Shown: positions 25,729-39,412 of the stretch, piece by piece
How the letters are laid out: each line of letters begins with the position of its first letter
Position numbering within the stretch: position 1 is the first letter of the stretch
From: Acidobacteriota bacterium
GTDB lineage: Bacteria > Acidobacteriota > Vicinamibacteria > Vicinamibacterales > UBA2999
DNA length: 64,000 nt
Assembly (NCBI GenBank): GCA_030650395.1
Contig: JAUSDY010000097.1
Span: 1-64,000, forward strand
Reading direction: 5' to 3'
The notes under the pieces: model-generated
What the model saw: only the letters and a program-made list of their open reading frames with translations
Database searches by the model: none
What the model was told of the DNA's origin: nothing
Translations under genes and position numbers: made by a program

Positions 25729-28509
25729 ATGTCCGATCTCGCACCGGAGGCAAAAGCTCGGGAACAGATCGACGCGCAGTTGAAGGCTGCTGGCTGGACT
25801 CTCCAGGACTACACACGCTATGACGGCTCCGCGGCGAGGGCGATCGCGCTTCGCGAAATTCCCGTTAAGGGTGGCCGGTGCGACTACATGCTGCTACTCG
25901 ATCGCGGTCCCGTCGGCGTTATCGAAGCCAAGAAGGTGGGGACGAAACTGTCGATGGTGGCGGAGCAGTCCGGCTTCTATGGCGCAAACGTCCCAGATTT
26001 CCTGAAGCAACCGCTTGGGGTACTTCCGTTCTGCTACGAATCCACTGGTGTCGAGACGTTCTTCCGTGACGAACGCGATCCTGCTCCAAGGTCACGTCAG
26101 ATCTTCGCGTTTCATCGGCCCGAGACGCTCGCGGACTGGCTGAGCGAACCCGATACGCTGCGCGCCCGCCTGACCCGCATGCCTCCACTCGCAACAGCCG
26201 GGATGCGCGGCTGCCAGGTCGAGGGCATCACCAGCCTTGAGGCGTCCTTTGCCGACGCGCGTCCGCGGGCGCTCATCCAAATGGCCACCGGCGCCGGCAA
26301 GACCTATACGGCCTGCGCGTTCATCTACCGGCTCATCAAGTACGCCGGGGCGAAGCGCGTGCTGTTCCTGGTGGACCGCGGCAATCTCGGTCGACAGGCC
26401 ACGTCCGAGTTCCACCAGTTCGTGACGCCAGACACCGGCCGCAAGTTCACCGAGCTGTACAACGTCCAGCACCTCACATCAAATCAGTTGGACTCGGTCT
26501 CGCGCGTCACGATCTGCACGATCCAACGTCTCTATTCAATGCTGCGAGGCGAGGAGTTAAACGAGGACATCGACGAGAAGTCCGGCTTCGAACTCGCTGC
26601 CGCCGACAACCGCCATCGCGACGTGGCCTACAACCCGGCCATTCCGATAGAGGCCTTCGACTTTATCGTCACGGACGAATGCCATCGATCCATTTACAAC
26701 TTGTGGCGACAGGTACTCGACTATTTCGACGCGTTTCTCATCGGCCTCACCGCTACGCCGTCGAAGCAGACTATTGGATTTTTCAATCAGAACCTCGTCA
26801 CCGAGTATAACCACGAGCGCGCGGTCGCCGATGGCGTCAACGTCGGCTACGACGTGTATCGCATCAAGACGGAGGTCACCGAGCGGGGCGCAACGGTCGA
26901 GAAGGGCTTCTATGTGGACAAGCGCCACAAGGAGACGCGTGCCAGGCGCTGGGAGCAGCTCGACGAGGACTTCACGTACAGCCCCACCGATGTCGACCGC
27001 TCCGTCGTCGTCCCCTCGCAGATCCGAACGGTGCTTCAGGCGTTCAAGGAGGCGCTGTTCACCGAGCTTTTTCCCGGTCGCACGCTGGTGCCGAAGACAC
27101 TCATCTTTGCCAAAGACGACTCGCACGCAGAGGACATCGTGCACCTGGTCCGCGAGGTGTTCGGCAAGGGCAACGACTTCGCCAAGAAGATCACTTACAA
27201 AGCCTACGATCCGGAAACGAAGCGCTATGAGAAGTCCGAAACGCTAATTCAGGAGTTCCGCACGTCGCCGCAACTCCGTATCGCCGTCACGGTGGACATG
27301 ATTGCCACCGGCACAGACATCAAACCCATCGAGTGCTTGGTGTTTCTACGCGATGTGCGCAGCCGCGTTTACTTCGAGCAAATGAAGGGCCGCGGCACTC
27401 GTGTGCTTACACCGACAGATCTGCAGGCGGTGAGCGGCGCCGATGCCCAAGCGAAGACGCATTTCGTTGTCGTAGATGCTGTCGGCGTGTGCGAAAGCGA
27501 CAAGACGGATTCCCGGCCGCTCGAACGCAAGCGCAATGTGCCGTTCGACCGGCTGCTGCTCGGCGTCGCGCTCGGCAAGCGCGACGAGGACTCGCTCACC
27601 AGTCTTGCAGGACGACTTGCCAGACTGGATCGCGAGATCTCGCCCGCCGATCGCGCGCAGGTGGAAGACCTCAGCGGCCGGACCATTTCCACGATGGCCT
27701 CGACGCTGCTTCGCGCCATCGATCCCGACGTGGTTGCGCAGGTTGCGACCGGTAGGCCCGGCGCCAGCCGAGAAGAAGTGTCCCTGGAGACCTTCGAATC
27801 AACCCAGAAGAAGCTCATGGACGAGGCTTGCGCTCCGTTCGACAAACCCGAATTGCGCGACGTGCTCGCCAAGGCCAAGCAGGTGGCCGAGCAGACGATC
27901 GACGTCGTCACGATAGACGAAGTCGTGGGGCAGGGCTTCGATGTTGCAGCCAAGGAGAAGGCCGAGAGCCTTGTGACGTCATTCCGCGACTACATCGAGA
28001 AGAACCACGCCGAGATCACGGCGCTGCAGATTCTCTACAGCCGGCCGTATCAGCAGCGACTGACGGAGAAGATGCTCAAAGAGCTCGAGCGCAAACTGCG
28101 AGACGCGAACGCCACCTGGAACGAGGAACTGCTCTGGAAGGCGTTCGCCACAGCGGCTCCGCAGAAGGTGAAGGGCCGGTCAGCAGTCAATCGCTTCGCT
28201 GACCTCGTGCCTCTCGTGCGCTTCGCGCTCGAGCAGCAACCGGTGCTGGAGCCGTTCGCAGAATCGGTGAACGCCCGCTTCGATCGCTGGCTGGCCGCGA
28301 AGGCAGGCGCGGGGACGACGTTCACTGACGACCAGCGCGCCTGGCTCGAACTCATCCGCGACCACATCGCGACCAGCCTTAGTATCGAGTCCGGAGATTT
28401 CGACTTCGCGCCGTTCAATCAGCGCGGCGGCCTCGGGCGTGCGGCGCAGCTCTTTGGTGCCGGCTTAGACGAACTGATCGATGAACTCAATGAAGTGCTC
28501 GCGGCATGA
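25729..28509 (+). CDS. hsdR: type I restriction enzyme, R (endonuclease/translocase) subunit, EcoEI type
   Basis: 926 residues. The N-terminal nuclease domain has the PD-(D/E)xK pattern: Asp52 (GGRCDYMLLLD) and EAKK at 66-69. The superfamily 2 helicase motor follows with Walker A ATGAGKT (186-192), DECH box (316-319), LIGLTATPSKQ and TVDMIATGTDIKPIE, then motif VI MKGRGTRV. A C-terminal EcoEI-type helical region binds the methylase core. The subunit pumps unmethylated DNA and cuts it far from the site. It overlaps hsdS by ATGA. All key motifs are present, so it should be active if HsdM and HsdS are made. Confidence 0.96.
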   Translation: MSDLAPEAKAREQIDAQLKAAGWTLQDYTRYDGSAARAIALREIPVKGGRCDYMLLLDRGPVGVIEAKKVGTKLSMVAEQSGFYGANVPDFLKQPLGVLPFCYESTGVETFFRDERDPAPRSRQIFAFHRPETLADWLSEPDTLRARLTRMPPLATAGMRGCQVEGITSLEASFADARPRALIQMATGAGKTYTACAFIYRLIKYAGAKRVLFLVDRGNLGRQATSEFHQFVTPDTGRKFTELYNVQHLTSNQLDSVSRVTICTIQRLYSMLRGEELNEDIDEKSGFELAAADNRHRDVAYNPAIPIEAFDFIVTDECHRSIYNLWRQVLDYFDAFLIGLTATPSKQTIGFFNQNLVTEYNHERAVADGVNVGYDVYRIKTEVTERGATVEKGFYVDKRHKETRARRWEQLDEDFTYSPTDVDRSVVVPSQIRTVLQAFKEALFTELFPGRTLVPKTLIFAKDDSHAEDIVHLVREVFGKGNDFAKKITYKAYDPETKRYEKSETLIQEFRTSPQLRIAVTVDMIATGTDIKPIECLVFLRDVRSRVYFEQMKGRGTRVLTPTDLQAVSGADAQAKTHFVVVDAVGVCESDKTDSRPLERKRNVPFDRLLLGVALGKRDEDSLTSLAGRLARLDREISPADRAQVEDLSGRTISTMASTLLRAIDPDVVAQVATGRPGASREEVSLETFESTQKKLMDEACAPFDKPELRDVLAKAKQVAEQTIDVVTIDEVVGQGFDVAAKEKAESLVTSFRDYIEKNHAEITALQILYSRPYQQRLTEKMLKELERKLRDANATWNEELLWKAFATAAPQKVKGRSAVNRFADLVPLVRFALEQQPVLEPFAESVNARFDRWLAAKAGAGTTFTDDQRAWLELIRDHIATSLSIESGDFDFAPFNQRGGLGRAAQLFGAGLDELIDELNEVLAA

Positions 28510-29912
28510 GTGCGCTCAGGACAAAGACGGCCGACAGCGATTGGCCACGTGTCCGTCTAAGCGATGTCGCCGATTCGATTCAGTATGGCCACACCGCAAG
28601 CGCGATAGGTCGTGACAAAGGGCCAAGATTTCTGCGCATCACCGATATTCAAGATGGGCGCGTTGATTGGGCGGCCGTACCATCCTGCGACATTTTGGCC
28701 ACTGAAGTTCCGAAGTATCGACTCCGTTCTGGCGATCTGGTTTTTGCTCGCACCGGGGCGACGACCGGCAAGAGCTATCTGATCGGGGATTGCCCTGAAG
28801 CAGTGTTCGCGTCGTACTTGATTCGCGTCCGTGTCTCGACAGCGGTTAGCGCTCGGTATTTGGCAGCCTTCTTCCAGAGCGCCGATTATTGGCAACAGAT
28901 CGAACGGGGCAAGCGGGGGATTGGGCAGCCCAATGTTAACGGCCGGACTCTGGGTGATGTGGTGTTGCCATTGCCTTCGATTGGCGTACAGCAGGAGGTC
29001 GTCGCGGAGATCGAGAAACAGTTCACGCGACTGGACGCTGGCGTGGCGGCGCTGCGGCGCGTGCAGGCCAACCTCAAGCGCTACCGCGCCGCCGTCCTTA
29101 ATGCCACCTTCGAAGGCCATCTGGTTCCAACGGAAGCCGAAGTCGCACGAACGGCTGGTGGTGAGTACGAAACAGGTGAGCAACTCCTTCAGCGCATTCT
29201 CACGGAGCGGTACAAAAAGGCAACTGGACAACGCAAGCGCAAAGAGCCGGCAGCTTCGGACGACGCGGGCCTTCCGAATCTCCCGATGGGCTGGACATGG
29301 GCGAACTTGGATCAACTGTCATGGGCGTCGTCCTACGGCACGTCCGCGAAATGCGGTTACGAGAATCCAGGCCCAGCGGTGCTCCGTATCCCCAACATCG
29401 CCAATGGCCGAATTGATCTGGCCGATCTGAAGTTCGCCGGGTCGCAGTCGCGCATTGAAAAGGGCGATGAGCTGGAGCCTGGCGACTTGCTGATCATCCG
29501 CACGAATGGAAGTAGGAACCTCATTGGCCGATCTGCCGTCGTGAGGCAGCCACTGAACCCAGCCGCCACATACGCTTCGTACCTGATTCGCTTCAGACTC
29601 GTTCGCGAGCCACGGCTCTTCGCCTGGCTGGCCACGATTTGGAACTGCAGTTTTCTGCGGGCGTGGATCGAGCGGCGGGCCGCGACATCAGCGGGGCAAC
29701 ACAACATCAGCATGAGTGTTCTCGCGACCCTCCCGATTCCTCTTCCGCCAATCAATGAGCAGAAGCGGATCGCCGACGAGGTTAGCCGTCTGTTCAGTGT
29801 CGTCGATGAGGCCGAAACGATCGTTGCGCTCAATCTTCAGCGCGCCACGCGTCTCCGGCAGTCGGTCTTGCAGCGGGCGTTCTCCGGAGCCGTGGCCCCT
29901 TCTCGTGCCTGA
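28506..29912 (+). CDS. hsdS: type I restriction enzyme, S (specificity) subunit
   Basis: 468 residues with two target-recognition domains of the Methylase_S type. The first (residues 1-160) runs from WPRVRLSDVADSIQYGHTAS to VVLPLPSIGVQQEVVAEIEK. The second (about 260-430) runs from MGWTWANLDQLSWASSYGTS to LATLPIPLPPINEQKRIADE. Each is followed by a conserved dimerisation helix (FTRLDAGVAALRRVQANLKR and LFSVVDEAETIVALNLQR). It sets a bipartite DNA target for HsdM and HsdR. The start overlaps the hsdR stop by four bases. Both domains are full length; the target sequence cannot be predicted from the sequence alone. Confidence 0.94.
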   Translation: MSALRTKTADSDWPRVRLSDVADSIQYGHTASAIGRDKGPRFLRITDIQDGRVDWAAVPSCDILATEVPKYRLRSGDLVFARTGATTGKSYLIGDCPEAVFASYLIRVRVSTAVSARYLAAFFQSADYWQQIERGKRGIGQPNVNGRTLGDVVLPLPSIGVQQEVVAEIEKQFTRLDAGVAALRRVQANLKRYRAAVLNATFEGHLVPTEAEVARTAGGEYETGEQLLQRILTERYKKATGQRKRKEPAASDDAGLPNLPMGWTWANLDQLSWASSYGTSAKCGYENPGPAVLRIPNIANGRIDLADLKFAGSQSRIEKGDELEPGDLLIIRTNGSRNLIGRSAVVRQPLNPAATYASYLIRFRLVREPRLFAWLATIWNCSFLRAWIERRAATSAGQHNISMSVLATLPIPLPPINEQKRIADEVSRLFSVVDEAETIVALNLQRATRLRQSVLQRAFSGAVAPSRA

Positions 29913-30176
29913 GGTCCTGCGGCAGACGATCAAGGATCGCGGCACCTCCTGCGTTGAGCCTCGCCCAGGGGACGTGGGCAGTTGTCTTGCGATGCTCAAC
30001 CTGTGTCTCCGCACACAACGCCGGATTTGGCGACTGTCGCGACCCCTCGCGCCCTCGCGGGGATCGCGTGGATCGACAGCCAAGTCGGACGGGTGTTCCG
30101 GAGACCATCGGCATGAAATCAGCGTGACCTGCCCTGTCACAGCCTTGGTACACTCTGCGGCAACGAGGGACATCCC
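29913..30176 (+). other. non-coding spacer between hsdS and the DUF5131 gene
   Basis: 264 bases without a credible gene. The last 60 contain CTGTCACAG and a TACACT hexamer at about 30150, and GAGGGA lies just before the next ATG. A promoter for the four inserted genes may start here; no strong -35 box is seen. Confidence 0.35.
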
Positions 30177-30965
30177 ATGAGCGACAACTCCAAGATCGAG
30201 TGGACCGACGCGACGTGGAATCCGGTGCGCGGGTGCACCAAGGTCAGCCCGGGCTGCAAACACTGCTACGCCGAGACGTTCGCTGAACGTTTTCGCGGTG
30301 TCCCAGGGCATCCGTTCGAGTTCGGCTTCGACCTGCGCCTCGTTCCTGAAAAGCTGACCGACCCACTGCGCTGGGCTACTCCGCGCATGATCTTTGTCAA
30401 CTCGATGAGCGACCTGTTTCACACGGACGTGCCAGACGACTACATCGAGGCCGTCGCACAAGTCATGATGCAGGCCAACTGGCACACGTACCAGATCCTT
30501 ACCAAGCGTGGCGACCGCATGCGCGCCTTGCTGCGTGGCAAGCTCAAAGATGCCGCGCGCCAGTCGCATATCTGGTGGGGCGTCAGCGTCGAGAACCGCA
30601 AGCACGGCCTGCCACGCATAGCTGAGCTTCGGGACAGCCCTGCCCGGGTTCGATTCCTTTCGATCGAGCCGCTGCTTGAAAATCTCGGGCGCATCAACCT
30701 CCGCGGTATTCACTGGGTCATTGTCGGTGGCGAAAGCGGCGCTGGCGCACGACCAATGTCGGCCGAGTGGGTGCGAGGCATCAAGGACCAATGCAAGAAT
30801 GCGGAGATCCCGTTCTTCTTCAAACAATGGGGCGGCGTCCGCAAAAAAGAAACCGGTCGCGAGCTGGACGGGCGAACGTACAGCCAGTTTCCTGACAGGA
30901 GCCGGGCGCCCGTGCTGAGCCTGGCGTCACGCCAGGCTTTGGCCGTTCAGTTGACTGCCGGGTAG
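30177..30965 (+). CDS. DUF5131 (phage Gp37/Gp68 family) three-Cys-motif protein
   Basis: 262 residues. The opening IEWTDATWNPVRGC, then TKVSPGCKHCYAETFAERF, is diagnostic. The three cysteines (Cys20, Cys27, Cys30; Cx6CxxC) may bind a metal or iron-sulfur cluster, and the barrel-like body (MIFVNSMSDLFHTDVPDDYI, IWWGVSVENRKHGLPRI, FLSIEPLLENLG, HWVIVGGESGAGARPM) recalls radical SAM folds. The gene is followed after 3 bases by tcmP, its usual partner. The biochemical function is not established. In this window the pair sits between the specificity and methylase genes of a type I restriction system. Confidence 0.88.
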   Translation: MSDNSKIEWTDATWNPVRGCTKVSPGCKHCYAETFAERFRGVPGHPFEFGFDLRLVPEKLTDPLRWATPRMIFVNSMSDLFHTDVPDDYIEAVAQVMMQANWHTYQILTKRGDRMRALLRGKLKDAARQSHIWWGVSVENRKHGLPRIAELRDSPARVRFLSIEPLLENLGRINLRGIHWVIVGGESGAGARPMSAEWVRGIKDQCKNAEIPFFFKQWGGVRKKETGRELDGRTYSQFPDRSRAPVLSLASRQALAVQLTAG

Positions 30966-30968
30966 GAC

Positions 30969-32039
30969 ATGCCCAAAGCGGGGTTTCACGATAAACCGTT
31001 TGACGAAGCAACTCTGACAAAGCTGCAGCTTTTCGAGCTCTACGCTCGGGAGTGGCTGCCGGTCTTCCTGTCGACAGCCGTCAGGCCTGAAGTCCACCTG
31101 TTTGACTTCTTCGCAGGCCCCGGCACCGATTCATCGGGAGTGAGCGGCAGCCCCCTTCGTCTTCTGAAGCAAGTCCGGGACTACTCCAATCTCGCTCAGA
31201 AGTCTGGGGTGAGCGTCCACGTCCATCTATTTGACGCCGATCCCGCTAAGATCGCGGCGCTCGATCGGAATATCGATGCGCGTGGCCTACGGCTGCCGAC
31301 CGTTCATCTTGAAGTCAAGGCGCTGCCATTCGAGCAAGCGCTTCAACGGTCGTGGCCCACGATCTCGAATTCCAGAGCAGCCAAGCTCCTCCTGATGGAC
31401 CAGTTCGGAATTGACCATGTCACTCCCGAAGTGTTCGTGCAGCTCGCGTCTGCGCCGACATGCGATTTTCTCTTCTTTGTCTCGTCGGCCACTTACTATC
31501 GCTTTCAGAATCATCCAGCCATCAAGCAGAAAATCAGTCGGCCTGATGACCATTACCAGACGCATGTCGCCGTCCTCGATTTCTATCGAGGCCTCCTCCC
31601 GGCTACACAGCGATTCTATTTGAGCCCCTTTTCCCTGAAGAAGGGATCCAACATCTACGGAGTTGTCTTCGGATCTGCGCATCCACGCGGCATGGACAAG
31701 TTCCTTCAAGTGGCTTGGGCTCAAGACGAAATCAACGGCGAGGCGGACTTCGACATCAATCGGGAGAATATTCGTGCCGACCAGATGCTTCTACCGATTC
31801 CAGGGTTCCGACCGAGCAAAGTCAGCGCGTTTGAAGCGGACCTCGAACAGCGGTTGCGCGACGGCCTTCTTACCAATGAGGCTGAGGTTGTTCAGGTGTG
31901 CTTCGATCACGGCGTGCGAAGACAGCACGCCGAGCCAGTGCTGAAGAGGCTCAAGGCCGAAGGCGTGATCGATCTCGGATTCCGAGTCCCGGACATCAAG
32001 AAGCTGGATTCACCAAGACCGATTCGCCGGACTCGATAG
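30969..32039 (+). CDS. tcmP: three-Cys-motif partner protein TcmP
   Basis: 356 residues. The N-terminal signature KAGFHDKPFDEATLTKLQLF and the DFFAGPGTDSSG loop (residues 46-57) place it in the TcmP family, named for co-occurrence with three-Cys-motif proteins such as the DUF5131 gene just upstream (3-base gap, no strong ribosome-binding site, so probably translationally coupled). LFDFFAGPG resembles a methyltransferase motif I, and LLLMDQFGIDHVT fits the position of motif IV, so a SAM-dependent methyltransferase-like fold is plausible. No experimentally proven role is known to me. Confidence 0.85.
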   Translation: MPKAGFHDKPFDEATLTKLQLFELYAREWLPVFLSTAVRPEVHLFDFFAGPGTDSSGVSGSPLRLLKQVRDYSNLAQKSGVSVHVHLFDADPAKIAALDRNIDARGLRLPTVHLEVKALPFEQALQRSWPTISNSRAAKLLLMDQFGIDHVTPEVFVQLASAPTCDFLFFVSSATYYRFQNHPAIKQKISRPDDHYQTHVAVLDFYRGLLPATQRFYLSPFSLKKGSNIYGVVFGSAHPRGMDKFLQVAWAQDEINGEADFDINRENIRADQMLLPIPGFRPSKVSAFEADLEQRLRDGLLTNEAEVVQVCFDHGVRRQHAEPVLKRLKAEGVIDLGFRVPDIKKLDSPRPIRRTR

Positions 32040-32073
32040 CGCTCCTCGCAAGATGCTCTAGACTGACTTAGCC

Positions 32074-33273
32074 ATGGCCTCAATTCCCGCCGACGTCAAT
32101 CCAGATCTCCTGATCTGGGCGCGCGAAGAGAGCGGCTATCCGTCCGACTTGGTCGCCAAGCGGATCGGAGTCAGAGTCGAACGCCTGGCGGAGTGGGAGG
32201 GAGGCGATAGGAAACCGACCGTCCGCCAGGTTCAGGAACTCGCGAAAAGCTACCACCGGTCGTTCGGCGTGTTCTTCCTGCCACAGCGGCCAACCATCCC
32301 GCCACTGGCCGCGGAGTATCGACGACTACCCGGTGTCCTCCCCGGCGTCGAGTCGCCGGAGTTCCGGCTGGCGCTGCGTCAGATGTCGCTGCGTCGCGAG
32401 AGAACAATAGAGCTGAATGACGAACTCGCGGTCACGGGCACGGAGTTCACAACTCCCGCGCACATATCTGAAGGACCTGCGGCTGTCGGACGGCGATTGC
32501 GCGATCTGCTGGGCGTGACGGTGGCGCGGCAGATGGCGTGGCGCGACGAGTGGCAGGCGTGGCGGGAATGGCGATCAGCGGTCGAAAACATTGGCGTATT
32601 GGTCTTCCAGTTTCCGAAGGTGCCGCTCGGCCAAGTGCGTGGGGTTTCGCTACTCAGCTTTCCTTCGCCCGTCATCGGCATCAACAGCAAGGAACTGTCG
32701 GCGGGCGCTCGCATCTTTACCCTTTTGCATGAGCTGGTTCATGTCGCCTTGGCGCTCGGGCAAGAGGAGCGCGTTGCGCTCCGTGAAGGTCGAAACGAAT
32801 CGCAGTGGGCCGAGGTCGAACGCTTCGCGGAGGAGGCGGCCAGCGAGGCGGTGATTCCTGAGGACGCTCTCAGAGCCGCATTGCGCACTAGCAGGGCCTC
32901 TGCTGACGGCTGGGATATCGCGCAAGTCCGGAGCTTGGCTGCGAGGTTCCGCGTGACGCCACTTGCGATGGCCACTCGCCTGCGGGCTGCGGGCGAAATG
33001 ACCTGGGAAGTCTATGCGCGCTGGAAGGATGCCTGGACCGAGTACGTCTCGAACTTGAAAGCCAGAACCGGCGGCATGGCTACCCCGGTCGATAAGGCGC
33101 TGAGCCGAGGAGGGCGACCGTTCGCCCAACTCGTGCTTGAGGCGCTCGATGCCAATCGAATTACGGCCGTGGACGCCAGTCGCTACCTGGACCTCCGATT
33201 CGATCACATCGCAACCCTCCGAACCGAGCTCGTCGCAACCACGGGCGTACCCGGCGTCGACGACGGCAGCTAG
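32074..33273 (+). CDS. XRE-type regulator fused to ImmA/IrrE metallopeptidase
   Basis: 399 residues. An N-terminal helix-turn-helix (about 12-62: LLIWAREESGYPSDLVAKRI...VRQVQELAKSYHRSF) is followed by an ImmA/IrrE zinc peptidase domain with LLHELVHVAL (HELVH 219-223) and the downstream acidic helix EVERFAEEAASEAVIPEDAL. Such COG2856 proteins cleave repressors in integrative elements or act as the antitoxin half of toxin-antitoxin pairs. The PIN-like DUF4411 gene follows after 14 bases, the usual arrangement for this pair. Hence it probably neutralises or controls that toxin; cleavage of another repressor is the alternative. Confidence 0.88.
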   Translation: MASIPADVNPDLLIWAREESGYPSDLVAKRIGVRVERLAEWEGGDRKPTVRQVQELAKSYHRSFGVFFLPQRPTIPPLAAEYRRLPGVLPGVESPEFRLALRQMSLRRERTIELNDELAVTGTEFTTPAHISEGPAAVGRRLRDLLGVTVARQMAWRDEWQAWREWRSAVENIGVLVFQFPKVPLGQVRGVSLLSFPSPVIGINSKELSAGARIFTLLHELVHVALALGQEERVALREGRNESQWAEVERFAEEAASEAVIPEDALRAALRTSRASADGWDIAQVRSLAARFRVTPLAMATRLRAAGEMTWEVYARWKDAWTEYVSNLKARTGGMATPVDKALSRGGRPFAQLVLEALDANRITAVDASRYLDLRFDHIATLRTELVATTGVPGVDDGS

Positions 33274-33287
33274 CGCGCAGGCTATCG

Positions 33288-33761
33288 ATGTACTCGATCG
33301 ACACCAGTGTCTTCATGGATTGGCAAGCGAGGTACTACCCACTCGATCTGTTTCCGTCTCTTGAAACCAGGTTCGACGAGCTGATCGCAGCTGGCAACTG
33401 TCGCGCTGTTCAGCTAGTGAAGGAGGAAATCGACGCTGTCGGAACGCCTGGACTGCGGACGTGGGCCAAGAACCGCGCTGCGCTTTTTGTTCCGATTGCG
33501 CCGGACGTTCAGGCCGCAGGAGCCACCATCGAGGCCTCCTATCCTGACCTGATGGATCCAAAGGGCCTTCACGAATCCGCGGACGCCTACGTTATTGCCC
33601 TCGCCCAGATAAACAGCGGTACTGTCGTTAGCCAAGAAACATCAGCCGCTGAAAAACGAAATACGAAGCGAACGCATTTCATTCCCGACGTCTGCCGAGA
33701 CCTGGGAATACCCTGCATCAATCTGTTTGGCCTGATGCGTAGCGAAGGCTGGAAGTTCTAG
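33288..33761 (+). CDS. DUF4411 PIN-like protein (probable toxin)
   Basis: 157 residues. Acidic residues fit the PIN nuclease pattern: Asp5 (YSIDTSVFMD), Glu47 (VKEEID) and Asp99 (HESADAYVIALA), with a terminal VVSQE strand near 113-117. DUF4411 proteins are typically encoded directly after XRE-ImmA/IrrE proteins and are considered RNase-type toxins. hsdM follows after 8 bases, so toxin and methylase are likely on one transcript. RNase activity is inferred. Confidence 0.82.
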   Translation: MYSIDTSVFMDWQARYYPLDLFPSLETRFDELIAAGNCRAVQLVKEEIDAVGTPGLRTWAKNRAALFVPIAPDVQAAGATIEASYPDLMDPKGLHESADAYVIALAQINSGTVVSQETSAAEKRNTKRTHFIPDVCRDLGIPCINLFGLMRSEGWKF

Positions 33762-33769
33762 ACCGTCCG

Positions 33770-35236
33770 ATGAGCCCATCCGCCCTCGTTCAGAAACTCT
33801 GGAACTACTGCAACATCCTCCGAGACGACGGCCTGTCGTACGGTGACTACGTTGAGCAACTGACGTATCTGCTGTTCCTCAAGATGGCGGACGAGCAAAG
33901 TCGACCTCCGCACAACCGGCCGACGCCGATTCCGAAGGGCTTCGGCTGGCGAGCGCTGCTGAAACTTGATGGCGATGACCTGGAGACGCACTATCGCCAT
34001 ACACTTGAGGAACTCGGCAAGCGCCCCGCAATGCTCGGCCTGATCTTTCGCAAGGCGCAGAACAAGATTCAAGACCCCGCTAAGCTGCGCAGGCTCATAG
34101 TCGATCTGATCGACAAGGAAGAGTGGTCGCGCCTTGACGCCGACGTTAAGGGAGACGCCTATGAGGGCCTGCTGCAGAAGAACGCAGAGGACGTCAAGGG
34201 CGGCGCGGGCCAGTATTTCACGCCGCGCGCCCTCATTGCGGCCATGGTGGACGTGATGGCGCCGCAGCCTGGCCAGTCGATTTGTGATCCTGCATGCGGT
34301 ACGGGCGGCTTCTTGCTCGCTGCGCACGACTACCTGTCAATGAATCACAAGCTCGATCGGGAACAGAAGAAGAAACTGAAGAGCGGCACACTGTTGGGGA
34401 TCGAGCTCGTGGACAGTGTCGCGAGACTGTGCGCGATGAATCTGCTGTTGCACGGCATCGCCGGCGGCTCAGACAGCGATCTGCCGGTCATCGGCGGGCG
34501 TGATGCGCTGGCTGCGAAGCACGGCGAGTACGACATCGTCCTCGCCAACCCGCCCTTTGGCAAGAAGAGCAGCGTCACGATTGTCAACGACGCCGGCGAT
34601 CAGCAGCGCGAATCCCTCATCATCAACCGCGACGATTTCTGGGCGACTACCAGCAACAAGCAGCTCAACTTCTTGCAGCACATCTTCACCATCCTCAAAC
34701 AGCATGGCCGCGCGGCCGTTGTGTTGCCAGACAACGTGCTGTTCGAAGGTGGTGCCGGCGAGACGATCCGCCGCCAACTGCTGAATCAGGCCGACGTTCA
34801 CACACTGCTGCGCCTGCCCACCGGCATCTTCTACGCACAAGGCGTGAAGGCCAATGTGTTGTTCTTCGATCGGAAGCCGGCGCGGGAGAAGCCGTGGACC
34901 GATGCTCTCTGGATCTATGACCTCCGTACAAACTTCCACTTCACCCTGAAAGAGAATCCTCTCAAGCGTGCCGACCTTGACGACTTCGTAAAGTGCTGCA
35001 ATCCGAAGAATCGCCACAACCGAAAGGATAGCGAGCGGTTCAAGCGCTTCAGCTACGAAGACCTCACGAAGCGCGACAAGGTGAATCTCGATATCTTCTG
35101 GCTGAAGGATGAATCGTTGGAAGAGTCAGCAAATCTGCCGGCGCCTGGCGTCATCGCCGCGGAGATCGCCGAGGACCTGCAGGCTGCGCTTGAACAATTT
35201 GCGGCGATTGCCGACGACCTGAAGGCGCCGCGCTAA
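33770..35236 (+). CDS. hsdM: type I restriction enzyme, M (adenine methylase) subunit
   Basis: 488 residues. The N-terminal helical HsdM_N domain (LVQKLWNYCNILRDDGLSYG) is followed by the N6-adenine methyltransferase core: SAM motif I DPACGTGG (173-180) and catalytic NPPF (260-263). GAGQYFTPRALIAAMVDVM just before motif I is also typical. With HsdS it marks host DNA, and with HsdR it completes the restriction complex. Unusually it is last in the cluster, about 3.9 kb downstream of hsdS, behind four unrelated genes. No strong ribosome-binding site is seen, so expression may depend on the upstream PIN-like gene. Confidence 0.95.
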   Translation: MSPSALVQKLWNYCNILRDDGLSYGDYVEQLTYLLFLKMADEQSRPPHNRPTPIPKGFGWRALLKLDGDDLETHYRHTLEELGKRPAMLGLIFRKAQNKIQDPAKLRRLIVDLIDKEEWSRLDADVKGDAYEGLLQKNAEDVKGGAGQYFTPRALIAAMVDVMAPQPGQSICDPACGTGGFLLAAHDYLSMNHKLDREQKKKLKSGTLLGIELVDSVARLCAMNLLLHGIAGGSDSDLPVIGGRDALAAKHGEYDIVLANPPFGKKSSVTIVNDAGDQQRESLIINRDDFWATTSNKQLNFLQHIFTILKQHGRAAVVLPDNVLFEGGAGETIRRQLLNQADVHTLLRLPTGIFYAQGVKANVLFFDRKPAREKPWTDALWIYDLRTNFHFTLKENPLKRADLDDFVKCCNPKNRHNRKDSERFKRFSYEDLTKRDKVNLDIFWLKDESLEESANLPAPGVIAAEIAEDLQAALEQFAAIADDLKAPR

Positions 35237-35636: not shown

Positions 35637-35741
35637 TGTTAGCGAACGGTCAAATGCGGCCACTCCCGAACGTCTGAAAACCGGCCACGGCAGGTAAGGG
35701 AATTCAGGCATCCTGAAGGGTTTCCCCCTTGGAGGATGTCG

Positions 35742-37313
35742 ATGACCAATTACCTGAAGATGCCGAAGAAACAACAAGTTATCGCCCTGCTGGCCCTCGG
35801 CTGGAGTTACCGTCGGATTGAAGCCGAGACCGGTGTCCATCGCGAGACGGTCGCCGGCTACGATCCGAACCGCGCGCCAAAACCGGCCAAAACGTTCCCC
35901 GGCTCTGATCCGTCCCCACCGGGCGCCACCGGCGAGGACCGGACCGCCGACGATTCAAATCCGGCCACAACGTTCGCCGGCTCGCCCGCAAATCCGGCCA
36001 AAACGTTCCCCGGCTCGGCGCCGCGGCGACGATTCTCCGCGGCGGTCTATCGCGCGGCGATCACCGAAAAACTCGACGCGGGGTTGAGCCTCCAGCGCGT
36101 CTGGCAGGACCTCGTCGAAGAGTACGGCTACGGCGCCAGTTATGAATCGGTGAAGCGGTTTGTGCGGACGCTCACGCCCACGCGCCGCGCCGTGGGCGTC
36201 TTTCATTGCGCGCCAGGCGCCGAGGCACAGGTCGACTTCTTCCAGGGCGCGCCCACGCTCGAGCCCACGACGGGTGAGTGGCGTCGGCCGTGGGTCTTTC
36301 GCATGACGCTCGGTCACTCGCGGCACGGCTACGAAGAAGCCGTCTGGGATCAGAAGCTCGCGACGTTTCTGCGTCTGCACGAACGGGCGTTTCGTGATCT
36401 CGGCGGCGTGGCCCTCGTGATTCGCCACGATAATCTAAAAGCCGCCGTCGTGCGCGCGTGCTTCTACGATCCCGACAGTCACGAGGTCTACCTCGCGTTC
36501 GCCGCCCACTGGGGCTTCACGCCGCTGCCGACCCGGCCCCGCTACCCGCAGGAAAACGGCAAGCAAGAGCGGAGCGGCGGCTACGTCAAAGACAACGCGC
36601 TGAAGGGGCGACGCTTCGACAGCTTGGACGCGCAGAACGCCTTTCTGCGACACTGGAATCGGACCATTGCGCGGCTGCGGATCCACGGGACGACGCGTCG
36701 CCAGGTGTGGACGCACTTCGTCGAGGCCGAGCAACGCGCCCTCCAGCCGCTCGCCGCGACGGCGTTCCCCATCTTCACCAGCGGCGCGCGGACGGTGCAC
36801 GCCGACGGCCATGTCGAAGTCGACGGCAGCTTCTATCCCGTGCCGCTCGCGCTGCTCGGCCAGGGCGTGCGCGTGCAGTGGGACGCGCACCTGGTCCGCG
36901 TCTTCCACACCGACACCCTCGTCGCCGTCCACGCGAAAGTCGCGGCCGGGCTGTTTGCGCCGCGCGCCGGGGAGGCCGAGGCCTCGACGCGACAACAGGC
37001 GTATGTCGACCACCTCCTCGGCCGGTGCGCGCGCGTCGGTCCGGCCCTGCGGCTGTGGGCCGACGCGGCGATCCTCGCGCGAGGCGTGCGGGCGATTCGT
37101 CTGATTCAAGGCGTGCTCAGCCTGACGCGGCGGCATCCGCGCGAGCGCGTACTCCACGCGGTCGCCCAGGCGCACACCCATCAACTCTTTCGCTACCAGC
37201 TGGTGCGGCGCCTCGTCGAGGCCGCGCCGGCTCCGTCCGCGCCCTCGCTCGTCGCCGACGATCCGGCGATTCGCCCGATGACCCAGTACACCTTGGAGGA
37301 CTTTCTCAAATGA
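35742..37313 (+). CDS. istA: IS21-family transposase IstA
   Basis: 523 residues from the ATG at 35742, which has GGAGG at the right distance; the ATG at 35736 directly abuts the Shine-Dalgarno. A helix-turn-helix (QVIALLALGWSYRRIEAETG) is followed by a linker with PAKTFPGS-type repeats (about residues 48-95), longer than usual. The DDE catalytic core then has Asp in EAQVDFFQGAP, Asp in LVIRHDNLKAAVV and Glu in GKQERSGGYVKDNAL. It cuts and joins the element's ends, with IstB as regulator. All three acidic residues are present. Confidence 0.95.
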   Translation: MTNYLKMPKKQQVIALLALGWSYRRIEAETGVHRETVAGYDPNRAPKPAKTFPGSDPSPPGATGEDRTADDSNPATTFAGSPANPAKTFPGSAPRRRFSAAVYRAAITEKLDAGLSLQRVWQDLVEEYGYGASYESVKRFVRTLTPTRRAVGVFHCAPGAEAQVDFFQGAPTLEPTTGEWRRPWVFRMTLGHSRHGYEEAVWDQKLATFLRLHERAFRDLGGVALVIRHDNLKAAVVRACFYDPDSHEVYLAFAAHWGFTPLPTRPRYPQENGKQERSGGYVKDNALKGRRFDSLDAQNAFLRHWNRTIARLRIHGTTRRQVWTHFVEAEQRALQPLAATAFPIFTSGARTVHADGHVEVDGSFYPVPLALLGQGVRVQWDAHLVRVFHTDTLVAVHAKVAAGLFAPRAGEAEASTRQQAYVDHLLGRCARVGPALRLWADAAILARGVRAIRLIQGVLSLTRRHPRERVLHAVAQAHTHQLFRYQLVRRLVEAAPAPSAPSLVADDPAIRPMTQYTLEDFLK

Positions 37314-38056
37314 ATGCTCAACTCTCGACCCGTCTCCGCCATCTCCGTCTCTCCGGCATGGTCGAAGCGCTTCCCGGCCGCGTCGCCCAGGCCGAGGCCG
37401 CGCCGCTCCCGCACCTCGAATTCCTCGAGCTCCTCGTCGAGGACGAACTCACCCGTCGGGCCGACCGGCTCTATGCGCGTCGGCTCAAGCAGGCCGGCAT
37501 CGTGACCGTGAAGACGCTGGCCGATTTCGAGTGGGCCTTCAATCCGAAGCTCCCGAAGGTGAAACTCGTCGAGCTCGCCAGTGCGCGCTTTGTCCAGACC
37601 CACGCCGGCGTCTTGCTCATTGGGCCGCCGGGCGTCGGCAAATCGCACCTCGCGACGGCGATCGCGGTCGGCGCCATCCGCGCCGGCCGGCGGGTCCTGA
37701 TCCGCAGCACCTTCGATTTGGTCGCCGACTTCGCCGAAGCCGAGGCCACCGGGGCGCGCCGCGCCCTCGTGCAGCAGCTGACACGCGTCGACCTCCTCGT
37801 CCTCGAGGATTTCGGGATGAAGAGACTCGGCGCGACCGCCGCGGAGGATCTCTTGGAAATCTTCGTCCGTCGGCACGAAGCCGCGTCGACGCTCATTACG
37901 ACGAATCGGCCCACGCAGGACTGGGGCATCTTTCTCGGCGACGTGCCGGCCGCCACCGCGATCCTCGATCGCTTCTTGGCCCACGCCGAGATTGTGCCCA
38001 TGACGGGCAAGAGCTACCGCTTCCGGCAACGCGCCAGCGCCCCGCCCGAGGCGTGA
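37310..38056 (+). CDS. istB: IS21-family helper ATPase IstB
   Basis: 248 residues starting at the ATG that overlaps the istA stop (ATGA); the much longer open frame upstream is only a shadow of istA. An N-terminal helical domain (LRLSGMVEALPGRVAQAEAA) leads to a DnaA/DnaC-like AAA+ domain with Walker A GPPGVGKSH (105-113), Walker B LLVLEDFG and TLITTNRPTQDW. IstB activates IstA and helps target DNA selection. Intact. Confidence 0.95.
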   Translation: MNAQLSTRLRHLRLSGMVEALPGRVAQAEAAPLPHLEFLELLVEDELTRRADRLYARRLKQAGIVTVKTLADFEWAFNPKLPKVKLVELASARFVQTHAGVLLIGPPGVGKSHLATAIAVGAIRAGRRVLIRSTFDLVADFAEAEATGARRALVQQLTRVDLLVLEDFGMKRLGATAAEDLLEIFVRRHEAASTLITTNRPTQDWGIFLGDVPAATAILDRFLAHAEIVPMTGKSYRFRQRASAPPEA

Positions 38057-38325
38057 CGACGGCCCATGGACGCTGCCGGAGCCGTGGACGCACAGCACGC
38101 GCCCACCGCTCCTTGGAAAACCCCAAAACGGTTTTCCACAAGCGCCCACCGGCGCAATCGTTTTCTGTCGGGAACGAAGAACGGCAGGGGACACTTCTAT
38201 TTCGCTTGGACAAGAAACAGCGCCCGCGCTTGTGTGTGGGAAGGAATCAGACGATACTCAACGCCCCTACCGCGTGGCCGGTTTTCAAACGTTCTTCAGT
38301 GGCCGCATTTAGACGTTCGGTGACA
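38057..38325. other. non-coding right end of the IS21-family element
   Basis: After the istB stop, about 215 bases carry no gene. The last 53 bases form the right terminal inverted repeat. The flanking sequence resumes at 38326 with the target duplication. Confidence 0.8.
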
Positions 38326-38332
38326 CACACAT
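38326..38332. repeat. target-site duplication of the IS21-family element, right copy
   Basis: CACACAT, identical to 35630-35636. Confidence 0.9.
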
Positions 38333-39003
38333 GGCCGTGGCCACGCCCGCACGAGCCCGATAACAGCGGATTGTTTGCTTGCCTCTGGAGCGAGTCGTAC
38401 CCGAAGCTCCTCGATTCTTCTGAATGAAATCGGGCCAATGGCGTACTTGGCGATCAACTCCGGGAAGAAAGCGAACTTCCCAGCAATGACGTCCATTAAT
38501 CCCTCTTCTGGATCCTTGTGCTCGGGAAGGACATGAGTACGACAGAACCTCAGACGCATCTGGGGTGTAAGTGTCAAGAGGTGCGCGAGTTCATGCCATT
38601 TAGAGAAGTAGGACCTAAAACGTTTCGCGCCACGGCAATCGATTAAGGAGACAAACTTGCGGTCTCCCTTCCCACCCCTTTGAAGGCCAAACGTAATCGC
38701 ATAGACGTCTGGACCGAGCTGATGTTCAAGGTCAGCGAACGACACTTCTCCGCGACCAGAATACTCATCGCGGACCCGAAGCAACGTTTTGTCGCTGTCT
38801 ATCTCGATGAAGAGCGTGTCGAGTTTGATTGCGGCCAGCTGTAACAGGTCGGTAGGCGTAGCACAGCCATGCTCTTGAATGAACGCACGAATTTTCTTCT
38901 GGCACAAGCGGATGATGGCACCCACTGGGTCCCCGTCGTGCTTCGCACCTAGGTCGGCTGCAAGTCTCCAGAGGCGAGGGTCATTCTTCAGGTTCGATGC
39001 CAT
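38326..39003 (-). pseudogene. ImmA/IrrE-type peptidase gene, 5' part (interrupted by IS21 insertion)
   Basis: 226 codons from the ATG at 39003 to the insertion point. A zinc-peptidase motif KWHELAHLLTL (HELAH 137-141) and a later EEGLMDVIAGKFAF helix identify the ImmA/IrrE superfamily. The N-terminal region (DPRLWRLAADLGAKHDGDPV, GCATPTDLLQLAAIKLDTLF) has the usual helical lead. Joined to 35282-35629 the full protein is 341 residues. The start overlaps the XRE gene by 23 bases, so the two are an operon. The catalytic part is upstream of the break, so a truncated product may be made, but the C-terminal third is replaced by about 10 read-through residues from the IS. Confidence 0.85.
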
Positions 39004-39412
39004 CGGAGTACACCTTCGTAATCGCCAGGTAGAGTCGCTTCCACTCGTCGACACTTCTCTCACGCGTCGCTTGGGTTGCTCGTCGAGCAACAACCGCTTG
39101 GTGCGCGTCGAGCAGTGTCATCGTTTCCGAGTAGCTCAACCCTAGTTGCTCCGCCGCCTCCGACAGTGTTCGCGGAATCGTGACCGGTTCACGCTCACGT
39201 TCTTCACGACCAGTCTCGCCCCGCAATAGGTAGTCCAGCGACGCGCCCAATACACCTGCAATCCTGAGCACGTAGTCGGTACTGATGTTCCGCTTGTTGT
39301 TCTCTACTTCGCTGAGGAACCCCTTACTAATTTTTGTTTCCAGCGCTAACCGCTCCTGCGTCCAATTGCGCCTTTCTCTAACTTCTTTGATTCGGTCACC
39401 GATTGTAGGCAC
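38981..39412 (-). CDS. XRE-family regulator
   Basis: 143 residues. The Cro/CI helix-turn-helix occupies residues 6-62 (IKEVRERRNWTQERLALETK, then ISKGFLSEVENNKRNISTDY). The second half has a short Arg/Glu-rich linker and a helix. It is the first gene of the operon with the interrupted ImmA/IrrE peptidase, which presumably cleaves it. It is divergent from the DUF2188 gene, and paired CGCTATAC repeats in the shared promoter region are likely its binding sites. With the peptidase broken, repression may now be permanent. Confidence 0.9.
   Translation of the reverse strand: MPTIGDRIKEVRERRNWTQERLALETKISKGFLSEVENNKRNISTDYVLRIAGVLGASLDYLLRGETGREEREREPVTIPRTLSEAAEQLGLSYSETMTLLDAHQAVVARRATQATRERSVDEWKRLYLAITKVYSDGIEPEE

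Follow-up and report, generated by a model that had tools for sequence, protein, structure and literature searches.

A window of 64,000 nucleotides from an Acidobacteriota bacterium (contig JAUSDY010000097.1, positions 1 to 64,000 of the forward strand) contains a type I restriction-modification operon in which four further genes lie between hsdS and hsdM. Seven open frames, taken from the open reading frame (ORF) list of the window, occupy positions 25729-35236 of the + strand in the order hsdR-hsdS-DUF5131-tcmP-XRE/M78-DUF4411-hsdM, and profile searches confirmed all the ORFs and families, in the order and on the single strand given by a preliminary description of this DNA. From 5' to 3' the distances between the genes are -4, 264, 3, 34, 14 and 8 bp, a series that agrees with the "mostly tiny gaps" of that description except at the 264 bp separating hsdS from DUF5131.

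The type I gene set is complete: HsdR, HsdM and HsdS are all present and their catalytic motifs are kept. The hsdR gene (25729-28509, +) encodes an EcoEI-like restriction subunit with EcoEI_R_C (7e-42) and ResIII (3e-34) domains and the motifs GAGKT, DECH and D...EAK, and its product also matches the EcoAI-family R model, its NCBIfam scores lying below the curated equivalog cut-offs. EcoEI/EcoAI-like systems of this kind are those that we take to be type IB. The specificity gene hsdS (28506-29912, +; Methylase_S 8e-13, PADLOC Specificity_I 2e-78) overlaps hsdR by 4 bp, and hsdM (33770-35236, +; N6_Mtase 7e-67, PADLOC MTase_I 1e-193) encodes an N6-adenine methyltransferase subunit with the motifs NPPF and DPACGTG. 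Together these subunits would form an HsdR2M2S complex restricting unmethylated DNA in the usual type I manner.

The 3857 bp between hsdS and hsdM (29913-33769, +) hold two modules. Module 1 comprises DUF5131 (30177-30965, +; PF07505 7e-100, PADLOC PDC-M30B 1e-103), a predicted radical S-adenosylmethionine (SAM) enzyme with a CX6CX2C motif, and, 3 bp further on, tcmP (30969-32039, +; TIGR04474 2e-34, PDC-M30A 2e-98), whose product has a class I SAM methyltransferase-like fold. Module 2 comprises XRE/M78 (32074-33273, +), a probable antitoxin or regulator in which a helix-turn-helix (HTH) domain (HTH_3 4e-6) is fused to Peptidase_M78 (1e-13) with the motif HELVH, and DUF4411 (33288-33761, +; PF14367 1e-30), a PIN-like protein and probable toxin with the motif DTS, whose gene stops 8 bp short of hsdM. 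As had been proposed, the genes of the insert do make up two pairs, and each pair recurs with type I systems elsewhere (see below). The reading that we hold to be likely is that of an EcoEI-like restriction-modification system whose hsdS-hsdM interval acts as a cargo gap, filled here by two independent, swappable modules that were separately acquired and stacked in tandem.

The hsdS-hsdM interval as a recurrent gap and probable site of defense cargo

Loci for comparison (designated by L numbers) were picked by HsdM similarity and not by cargo. In the window's phylum, HsdM was matched at E <= 1e-40 in 40 genomes out of 396, at 46 places, and 35 stretches were fetched, the omitted ones being the window itself, a second piece of a fetched contig and weak matches (32-38% identity). 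A second sample of 387 genomes, from the phylum of the Verrucomicrobia record L085, gave 32 genomes with a match at 1e-100, in 34 places, all of which were fetched. Of the resulting 69 genome loci, 30 belong to clade 1 and have hsdS and hsdM together on a contig, 24 belong to clade 2, and 15 lie on cut contigs or have no detected hsdS; this last group includes several of the HsdM proteins nearest to that of the window (82-84%). Eight of the 67 matching plasmid records were opened and 7 were usable; with the 30 genome loci and the window they make up 38 clade 1 loci.

The two clades have different layouts, clade 1 showing the R-S-M order of the window (HsdM identity 47-83% among the loci used) and clade 2 the order R-M-S. 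HsdM scores, together with the order of the genes, first defined them; a later HsdM tree (62 rows), which carries long-branch warnings, separates the layouts by a single change (support 79), all trees cited here being quick ones. In clade 1, 30 of the 38 loci have an hsdS-hsdM gap of 400 bp or more, and in the other 8 the gap is empty, at less than 200 bp. Elsewhere, gaps of at least 400 bp are found at 12/34 R-S junctions of clade 1 and, in clade 2, at 4/23 M-S and 6/24 R-M junctions; these counts are given without a probability because the loci are related. The usual adjacency of hsdM, hsdS and hsdR, to which the preliminary description referred, therefore does not apply to this clade, in which the hsdS-hsdM interval is a recurrent gap for defense cargo. 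Among the loci with a complete gap, the nearest relatives of the window's HsdM carry an empty gap (L120, 80%), GmrSD with RloB (L192, 82%) and a PIN protein (L195, 83% over a partial row).

A match to Pfam, to PADLOC or to a protein of the window was obtained for the cargo of 25 of the 30 occupied gaps. The families comprise Septu (L126; PtuA 5e-186, PtuB 6e-84), an AAA_21 ATPase followed by a second gene (L135, L161, L162), AAA_21 (L196), ATPase_2/AAA (L128, L200), Schlafen AlbA_2 (L127, L129), GmrSD (L155, and L192, where AAA_21 and RloB are also present), DUF3800 (L193, L202), DUF4062 (L198), a PIN protein (L195), DarT with Macro (L199), HTH_17 (L203), DUF3037 (L204), HIRAN (L156), DUF4357 with GIY-YIG below the cut-off (L157), and a 1949-residue AAA protein with a Cap4-nuclease match just under the cut-off (L206). 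XRE/M78-DUF4411 itself fills the gap in L125, L201 and, with one more gene, L139, in addition to the window. Cargo was listed from the hsd strand, so the co-direction of all cargo is weakly tested; five opposite-strand ORFs that were scanned gave no Pfam match. The additional gene of L139 (8619-11042), between hsdS and XRE/M78-DUF4411, encodes an 807-residue protein without a Pfam or PADLOC match and is a candidate defense gene. In the eighth plasmid locus, L158, which lacks hsdS and is not among the 38, a VapC gene stands immediately 5' of hsdM.

Partial copies of hsd ends were found in 4 of the 32 gaps searched. Copies of the hsdM 5' end occur in L078 (1603-2576; 88 bp, 97.7%, E 3e-43), immediately 3' of tcmP, with small ORFs and the full hsdM following, and in L200 (slot positions 2363-2553; 192 bp, 88%, E 3e-52), whereas copies of the hsdS 3' end occur in L192 (36 bp, 92%, E 2e-9), where the copy separates GmrSD from the RloB set, and in L193 (200 bp, 100%). 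In this search, 30-bp self-matches reflect the overlap of the query with the gap, and three matches of 11 bp are no more than chance would give. The partial copies resemble scars left when the conserved flanks recombined, a process that would stack modules.

The cargo of the window is probably cotranscribed with hsdM, since the two share one orientation and only 8 bp separate them. A cell with HsdR needs the methylase, and cargo that blocked hsdM would be selected against. A scan for a promoter of hsdM's own gave promoter-like matches at about the expected number (2 against 2.2) and likewise terminator-like ones (9 against 9.1), with consensus sequences that may not fit the host phylum.

A different account of the same cargo is that the toxin pair, or whichever genes lie in the gap, retains an ordinary hsd operon by addiction or buffers the loss of hsdM, with no new system involved. 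It would agree with the position of DUF4411 directly before hsdM and with the recurrence of PIN or other toxin-antitoxin-like cargo (L125, L139 and L201, the PIN protein of L195, DarT and Macro in L199). However, much of the cargo is not of this type, 8 of the 38 gaps are empty, and nothing seen indicates regulation between toxin and hsd genes. We regard retention by addiction as improbable, although worth keeping in mind.

Independence and predicted activities of the two modules

The preliminary description had suggested a single composite system, co-evolved as a whole, in which the toxin pair serves as guard of the restriction genes and DUF5131-TcmP gives the same complex a second modification layer. 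Seven co-directional genes with mostly short gaps would be in line with this suggestion, as would the fact that the module families adjoin again in two loci of the same family as the window (L047, L173). However, no second locus among those examined has both modules inside an hsd operon, and each is found there without the other: XRE/M78-DUF4411 in L125, L139 and L201, and DUF5131-TcmP in L085 and, in an M-S-cargo-R layout, in L099. DUF5131 is absent from the 30 other clade 1 genome loci. More broadly, the M78-DUF4411 pair is present at 1 of 81 TcmP loci (a set that contains one duplicate, L070 being the contig of L093) and DUF5131 at 1 of 20 M78 loci. The trees also scatter the carriers: on an HsdM tree of 39 rows, the four M78-DUF4411 carriers correspond to 4 changes, the two DUF5131-TcmP carriers to 2, and the eight empty gaps to 7, and on the M78 tree, where embedded refers to copies inside an hsdS-hsdM gap only, the four such copies correspond to 4 changes. 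Because the modules separate in relatives and their order is not conserved as a unit, a composite is not supported; its obligate form was rejected, and we give the idea in general very little credence. Nor do the four genes represent a one-off insertion, since each pair recurs with type I systems (L125, L139, L201; L085, L099). The modules are thus independent of each other.

The two loci in which the module families adjoin are the one TcmP locus and the one M78 locus just counted; they show no hsd match on their stretches, and their M78-DUF4411 pairs are divergent. L047 (9691-12979) has the order tcmP-DUF5131-XRE/M78-DUF4411, and L173 (9419-12082), near a contig end, the order XRE/M78-DUF4411-DUF5131.

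The XRE/M78-DUF4411 pair has a solved counterpart in PDB entry 9vzy, which combines an HTH protein with a DUF4411 protein: XRE/M78 matches chain 9vzy_A (5e-32) and DUF4411 matches chain 9vzy_D (1e-23). In entry 9vzz, where the DUF4411 chain is listed alone, an Ala takes the position of the DTS Asp kept in 9vzy and in the window, as expected if the wild type were toxic. No paper describing 9vzy or 9vzz was found in the open-licence literature. The window's partners are adjacent, keep the PIN Asp and the HEXXH motif, and are both homologous to the solved complex. Across the phylum of the window, 34 of 396 genomes have an XRE/M78 relative. Since 6 of the 20 M78 stretches fetched have an hsd match (L167, L176, L177, L182, L183, L184), with M78 immediately 3' of hsdS in three of them (L177, L182, L184), the pair favors type I company. 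The closest copies to that of the window (70%; L165, L166) have no hsd match on their 19- and 20-kb stretches, and overall the pair seems to ride with several defense genes. Directly 5' of XRE/M78, both L165 (12583-17160) and L168 (5858-11098) encode large helicases with an MTES_1575 nuclease domain. The HTH/M78 protein would keep the PIN ribonuclease complexed and inactive and would repress it, and stress or phage attack would release the toxin; we find this mechanism more likely than not.

The DUF5131-TcmP pair, which the preliminary description had offered as part of an undescribed system, is already a PADLOC candidate, PDC-M30. TcmP fits model A and DUF5131 model B, the two genes lie side by side, and no difference was found; the window pair is a member. 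PDC candidates are described in one article as the product of guilt-by-embedding, and the series is credited there to Payne et al. 2024 (bioRxiv 10.1101/2024.01.29.577857, as cited in PMC12988326). A Pseudomonas aeruginosa survey reports PDC-M30 as predicted in 32 strains, 68.8% of which were phage-resistant (PMC10855318), and an expression table in a further article lists tcmP beside hna (PMC12445080). A functional study of the pair or of PDC-M30 was not found in the open-licence literature.

A scan with a TcmP alignment, at one genome per species, gave 41 loci, 39 of which have a DUF5131 gene; the subfamily of the window (DUF5131 first, 45-63% identity) accounts for 19 of them, counting L117, which aligned over 35 residues only. 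In the phylum sample, TcmP scored above the cut-off in 38 of 297 genomes; of the 40 phylum stretches fetched, three have an hsd match (L042, L049, L071) and none has the gene order of the window. L085 reads hsdS (two ORFs)-DUF5131-tcmP-hsdM, its contig ending inside hsdM, and hsdM sequence also lies 3' of tcmP in two cut or broken loci, L078, which starts inside DUF5131, and L080, which has an hsdM fragment only. A different hsd layout embeds the pair in the Flavobacteriales locus L099 (5146-16201), a member of the other TcmP subfamily, which reads hsdM-hsdS-662-residue ORF-tcmP-DUF5131-279-residue ORF-hsdR. Neighbors at other TcmP loci include DUF1156, HNH, SNF2 helicase and HSDR_N proteins. 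A DUF1156 protein (Pfam match) follows DUF5131-tcmP in L090 (2570-3592), the neighbor of the pair in L091 (12367-15207) begins with nearly the same residues as that protein, and the neighbor in L112 (11241-14030) is without a Pfam match. TcmP had no match in 50,697 phage records and was found in 5 of 72,556 plasmid records; none of the three TcmP plasmids opened (a second Leptospira record and one Streptomyces record being left out) has a type I hsd operon. One of them, Leptospira biflexa p74 (L032, 3037-9937), has a type ISP restriction enzyme followed by tcmP-DUF5131, the reverse of the window's order.

The predicted structures give the pair a possible chemistry. Three Cys are invariant in all 38 DUF5131 rows, with the spacing CX6CX2C in the window; the usual radical-SAM spacing is CX3CX2C. 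The DUF5131 model (mean predicted local distance difference test score (pLDDT) 91) is best matched by spore photoproduct lyase (VIA Z 13.5, 195-197 residues, root-mean-square deviation (rmsd) 2.9, 10-11% identity), and viperin-like enzymes reach VIA Z 11.5. This model suggests a radical-SAM-like barrel with three Cys for a predicted [4Fe-4S] cluster. Searches of the sequences of solved structures gave no TcmP or DUF5131 relatives of weight, and a DUF5131 profile search found nothing. The TcmP model (pLDDT 84) has a class I methyltransferase fold and may function like a SAM methyltransferase. Its top Foldseek matches are histamine methyltransferase (1.8e-6) and Trm1 (1.9e-6), and in VIA Trm1 (Z 14.9; 243 residues, rmsd 4.3) comes behind RlmJ (Z 16.9; 210 residues, rmsd 2.9). 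A C-terminal winged helix-turn-helix is hinted at by a match to GMT-wHTH (4e-4) below the cut-off. RlmJ-type enzymes carry DPPY as motif IV. Because TcmP has DQFG in its place (among 39 rows, D144 and G147 never vary and Q145 is kept in 90% or more), it was not filed as RlmJ.

As the folds are radical-SAM-like and methyltransferase-like, nucleic-acid chemistry is favored for the pair. DUF5131 would form a 5'-deoxyadenosyl radical at its three-Cys [4Fe-4S] cluster and alter a nucleic acid base, and TcmP, with its methyltransferase fold and possible winged helix, would bind or methylate the same nucleic acid. Together they would change the nucleic acid in such a way that phage is told from host or the infection is poisoned. 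Taken as a whole, this mechanism, modeled on predicted folds, is tentative.

Surroundings, counterevidence and precedents

The guanine plus cytosine (G+C) content drops around the locus, from 0.63-0.70 in the rest of the window to 0.59-0.62 at 24-36 kb and to 0.56 at 38-42 kb, and all five other genomes of the same genus that were searched lack this HsdM (E 1e-40). Directly 3' of the operon lies IS21 (35736-38056), with istA recognized by a profile match and an istB-like ATPase by eye. Beyond it, on the - strand (38296-39412), the gene of an XRE regulator (38981-39412) comes first and overlaps that of a 265-residue protein containing the stretch WHELAHLL; the two resemble another ImmA-like metallopeptidase pair, although the 265-residue protein has no Pfam, NCBIfam or PADLOC match. 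No tRNA genes and no RNA elements at Rfam gathering scores were found in the window, and no repeats were detected in 28400-34200. The lower G+C, the missing HsdM in the genus and the transposase from 35736 would suit chance debris of a mobile island, functionless at this position, but the seven frames are open, the checked motifs are kept and 30 of the 38 related loci have an occupied gap, a larger share than at other junctions, which makes debris a very poor explanation.

Several observations weigh against the reading of the locus as a cargo gap holding two stacked defense modules. DUF5131-TcmP was found between hsdS and hsdM only in the window and in L085. The proteins of four occupied gaps (L132, L149, L160, L208) were scanned with zero matches, and that of L131 counts as occupied by length alone, its ORFs being at most 101 residues long and their proteins unscanned. 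No duplication of an hsd end was found in the gap of the window, and the 264 bp between hsdS and DUF5131 could have room for a promoter. The adjoining of the module families outside hsd operons in L047 and L173 is unexpected under pure chance pairing. On the structural side, the Foldseek matches of DUF5131 are weak (best E 1.3e-3), RlmJ lies outside the Foldseek top 50 for TcmP, and RlmJ-type methylation by TcmP is doubtful given its DQFG motif. Finally, an antiphage effect of the modules is inferred. A bolder version of the cargo-gap reading, in which DUF5131-TcmP is a new kind of two-enzyme nucleic-acid editing defense and the hsdS-hsdM interval an operon-internal capture site, where modules are exchanged or stacked by recombination in the hsdS 3' and hsdM 5' ends, with selection against silencing hsdM, appears unlikely.

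The cargo-gap reading puts a testable rule in place of an apparent single odd system: in one type I clade the hsdS-hsdM interval is a gap for defense cargo, and therefore unfamiliar genes found there are good antiphage candidates. In addition, DUF5131-TcmP gains a concrete chemical hypothesis, that of a radical-SAM and a methyltransferase-fold protein acting on nucleic acid.

Compared with known systems, the operon shares its HsdR family with EcoEI/EcoAI-like systems and differs from them in the order R-S-cargo-M. HTH-protease-PIN sets, in which an HTH/COG2856 (M78) protein accompanies a PIN toxin, were predicted by Makarova et al. in 2009 (PMC2701414); the likeness of module 2 to these sets and to 9vzy lies in a fused XRE-M78 protein beside the PIN-family DUF4411, found here inside an hsd operon. 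The embedding of defense genes in type I operons is already published, and the window is a further example of this known packing. In the Escherichia coli RptR-RMS-DarTG2-M48 island, DarTG2 lies between hsdS and hsdR (PMC12255303), and in VPI-2 of Vibrio cholerae TgvAB lies in a type I operon, RloF being cited in the same article as located between hsdR and hsdS in Campylobacter (PMC11411939). The likeness is that another defense or toxin module sits between the hsd genes of a type I operon, whereas the site and the content differ: DarTG2 occupies the hsdS-hsdR junction and TgvAB is placed like RloF (hsdR-hsdS), while in the window two modules of other families lie between hsdS and hsdM.

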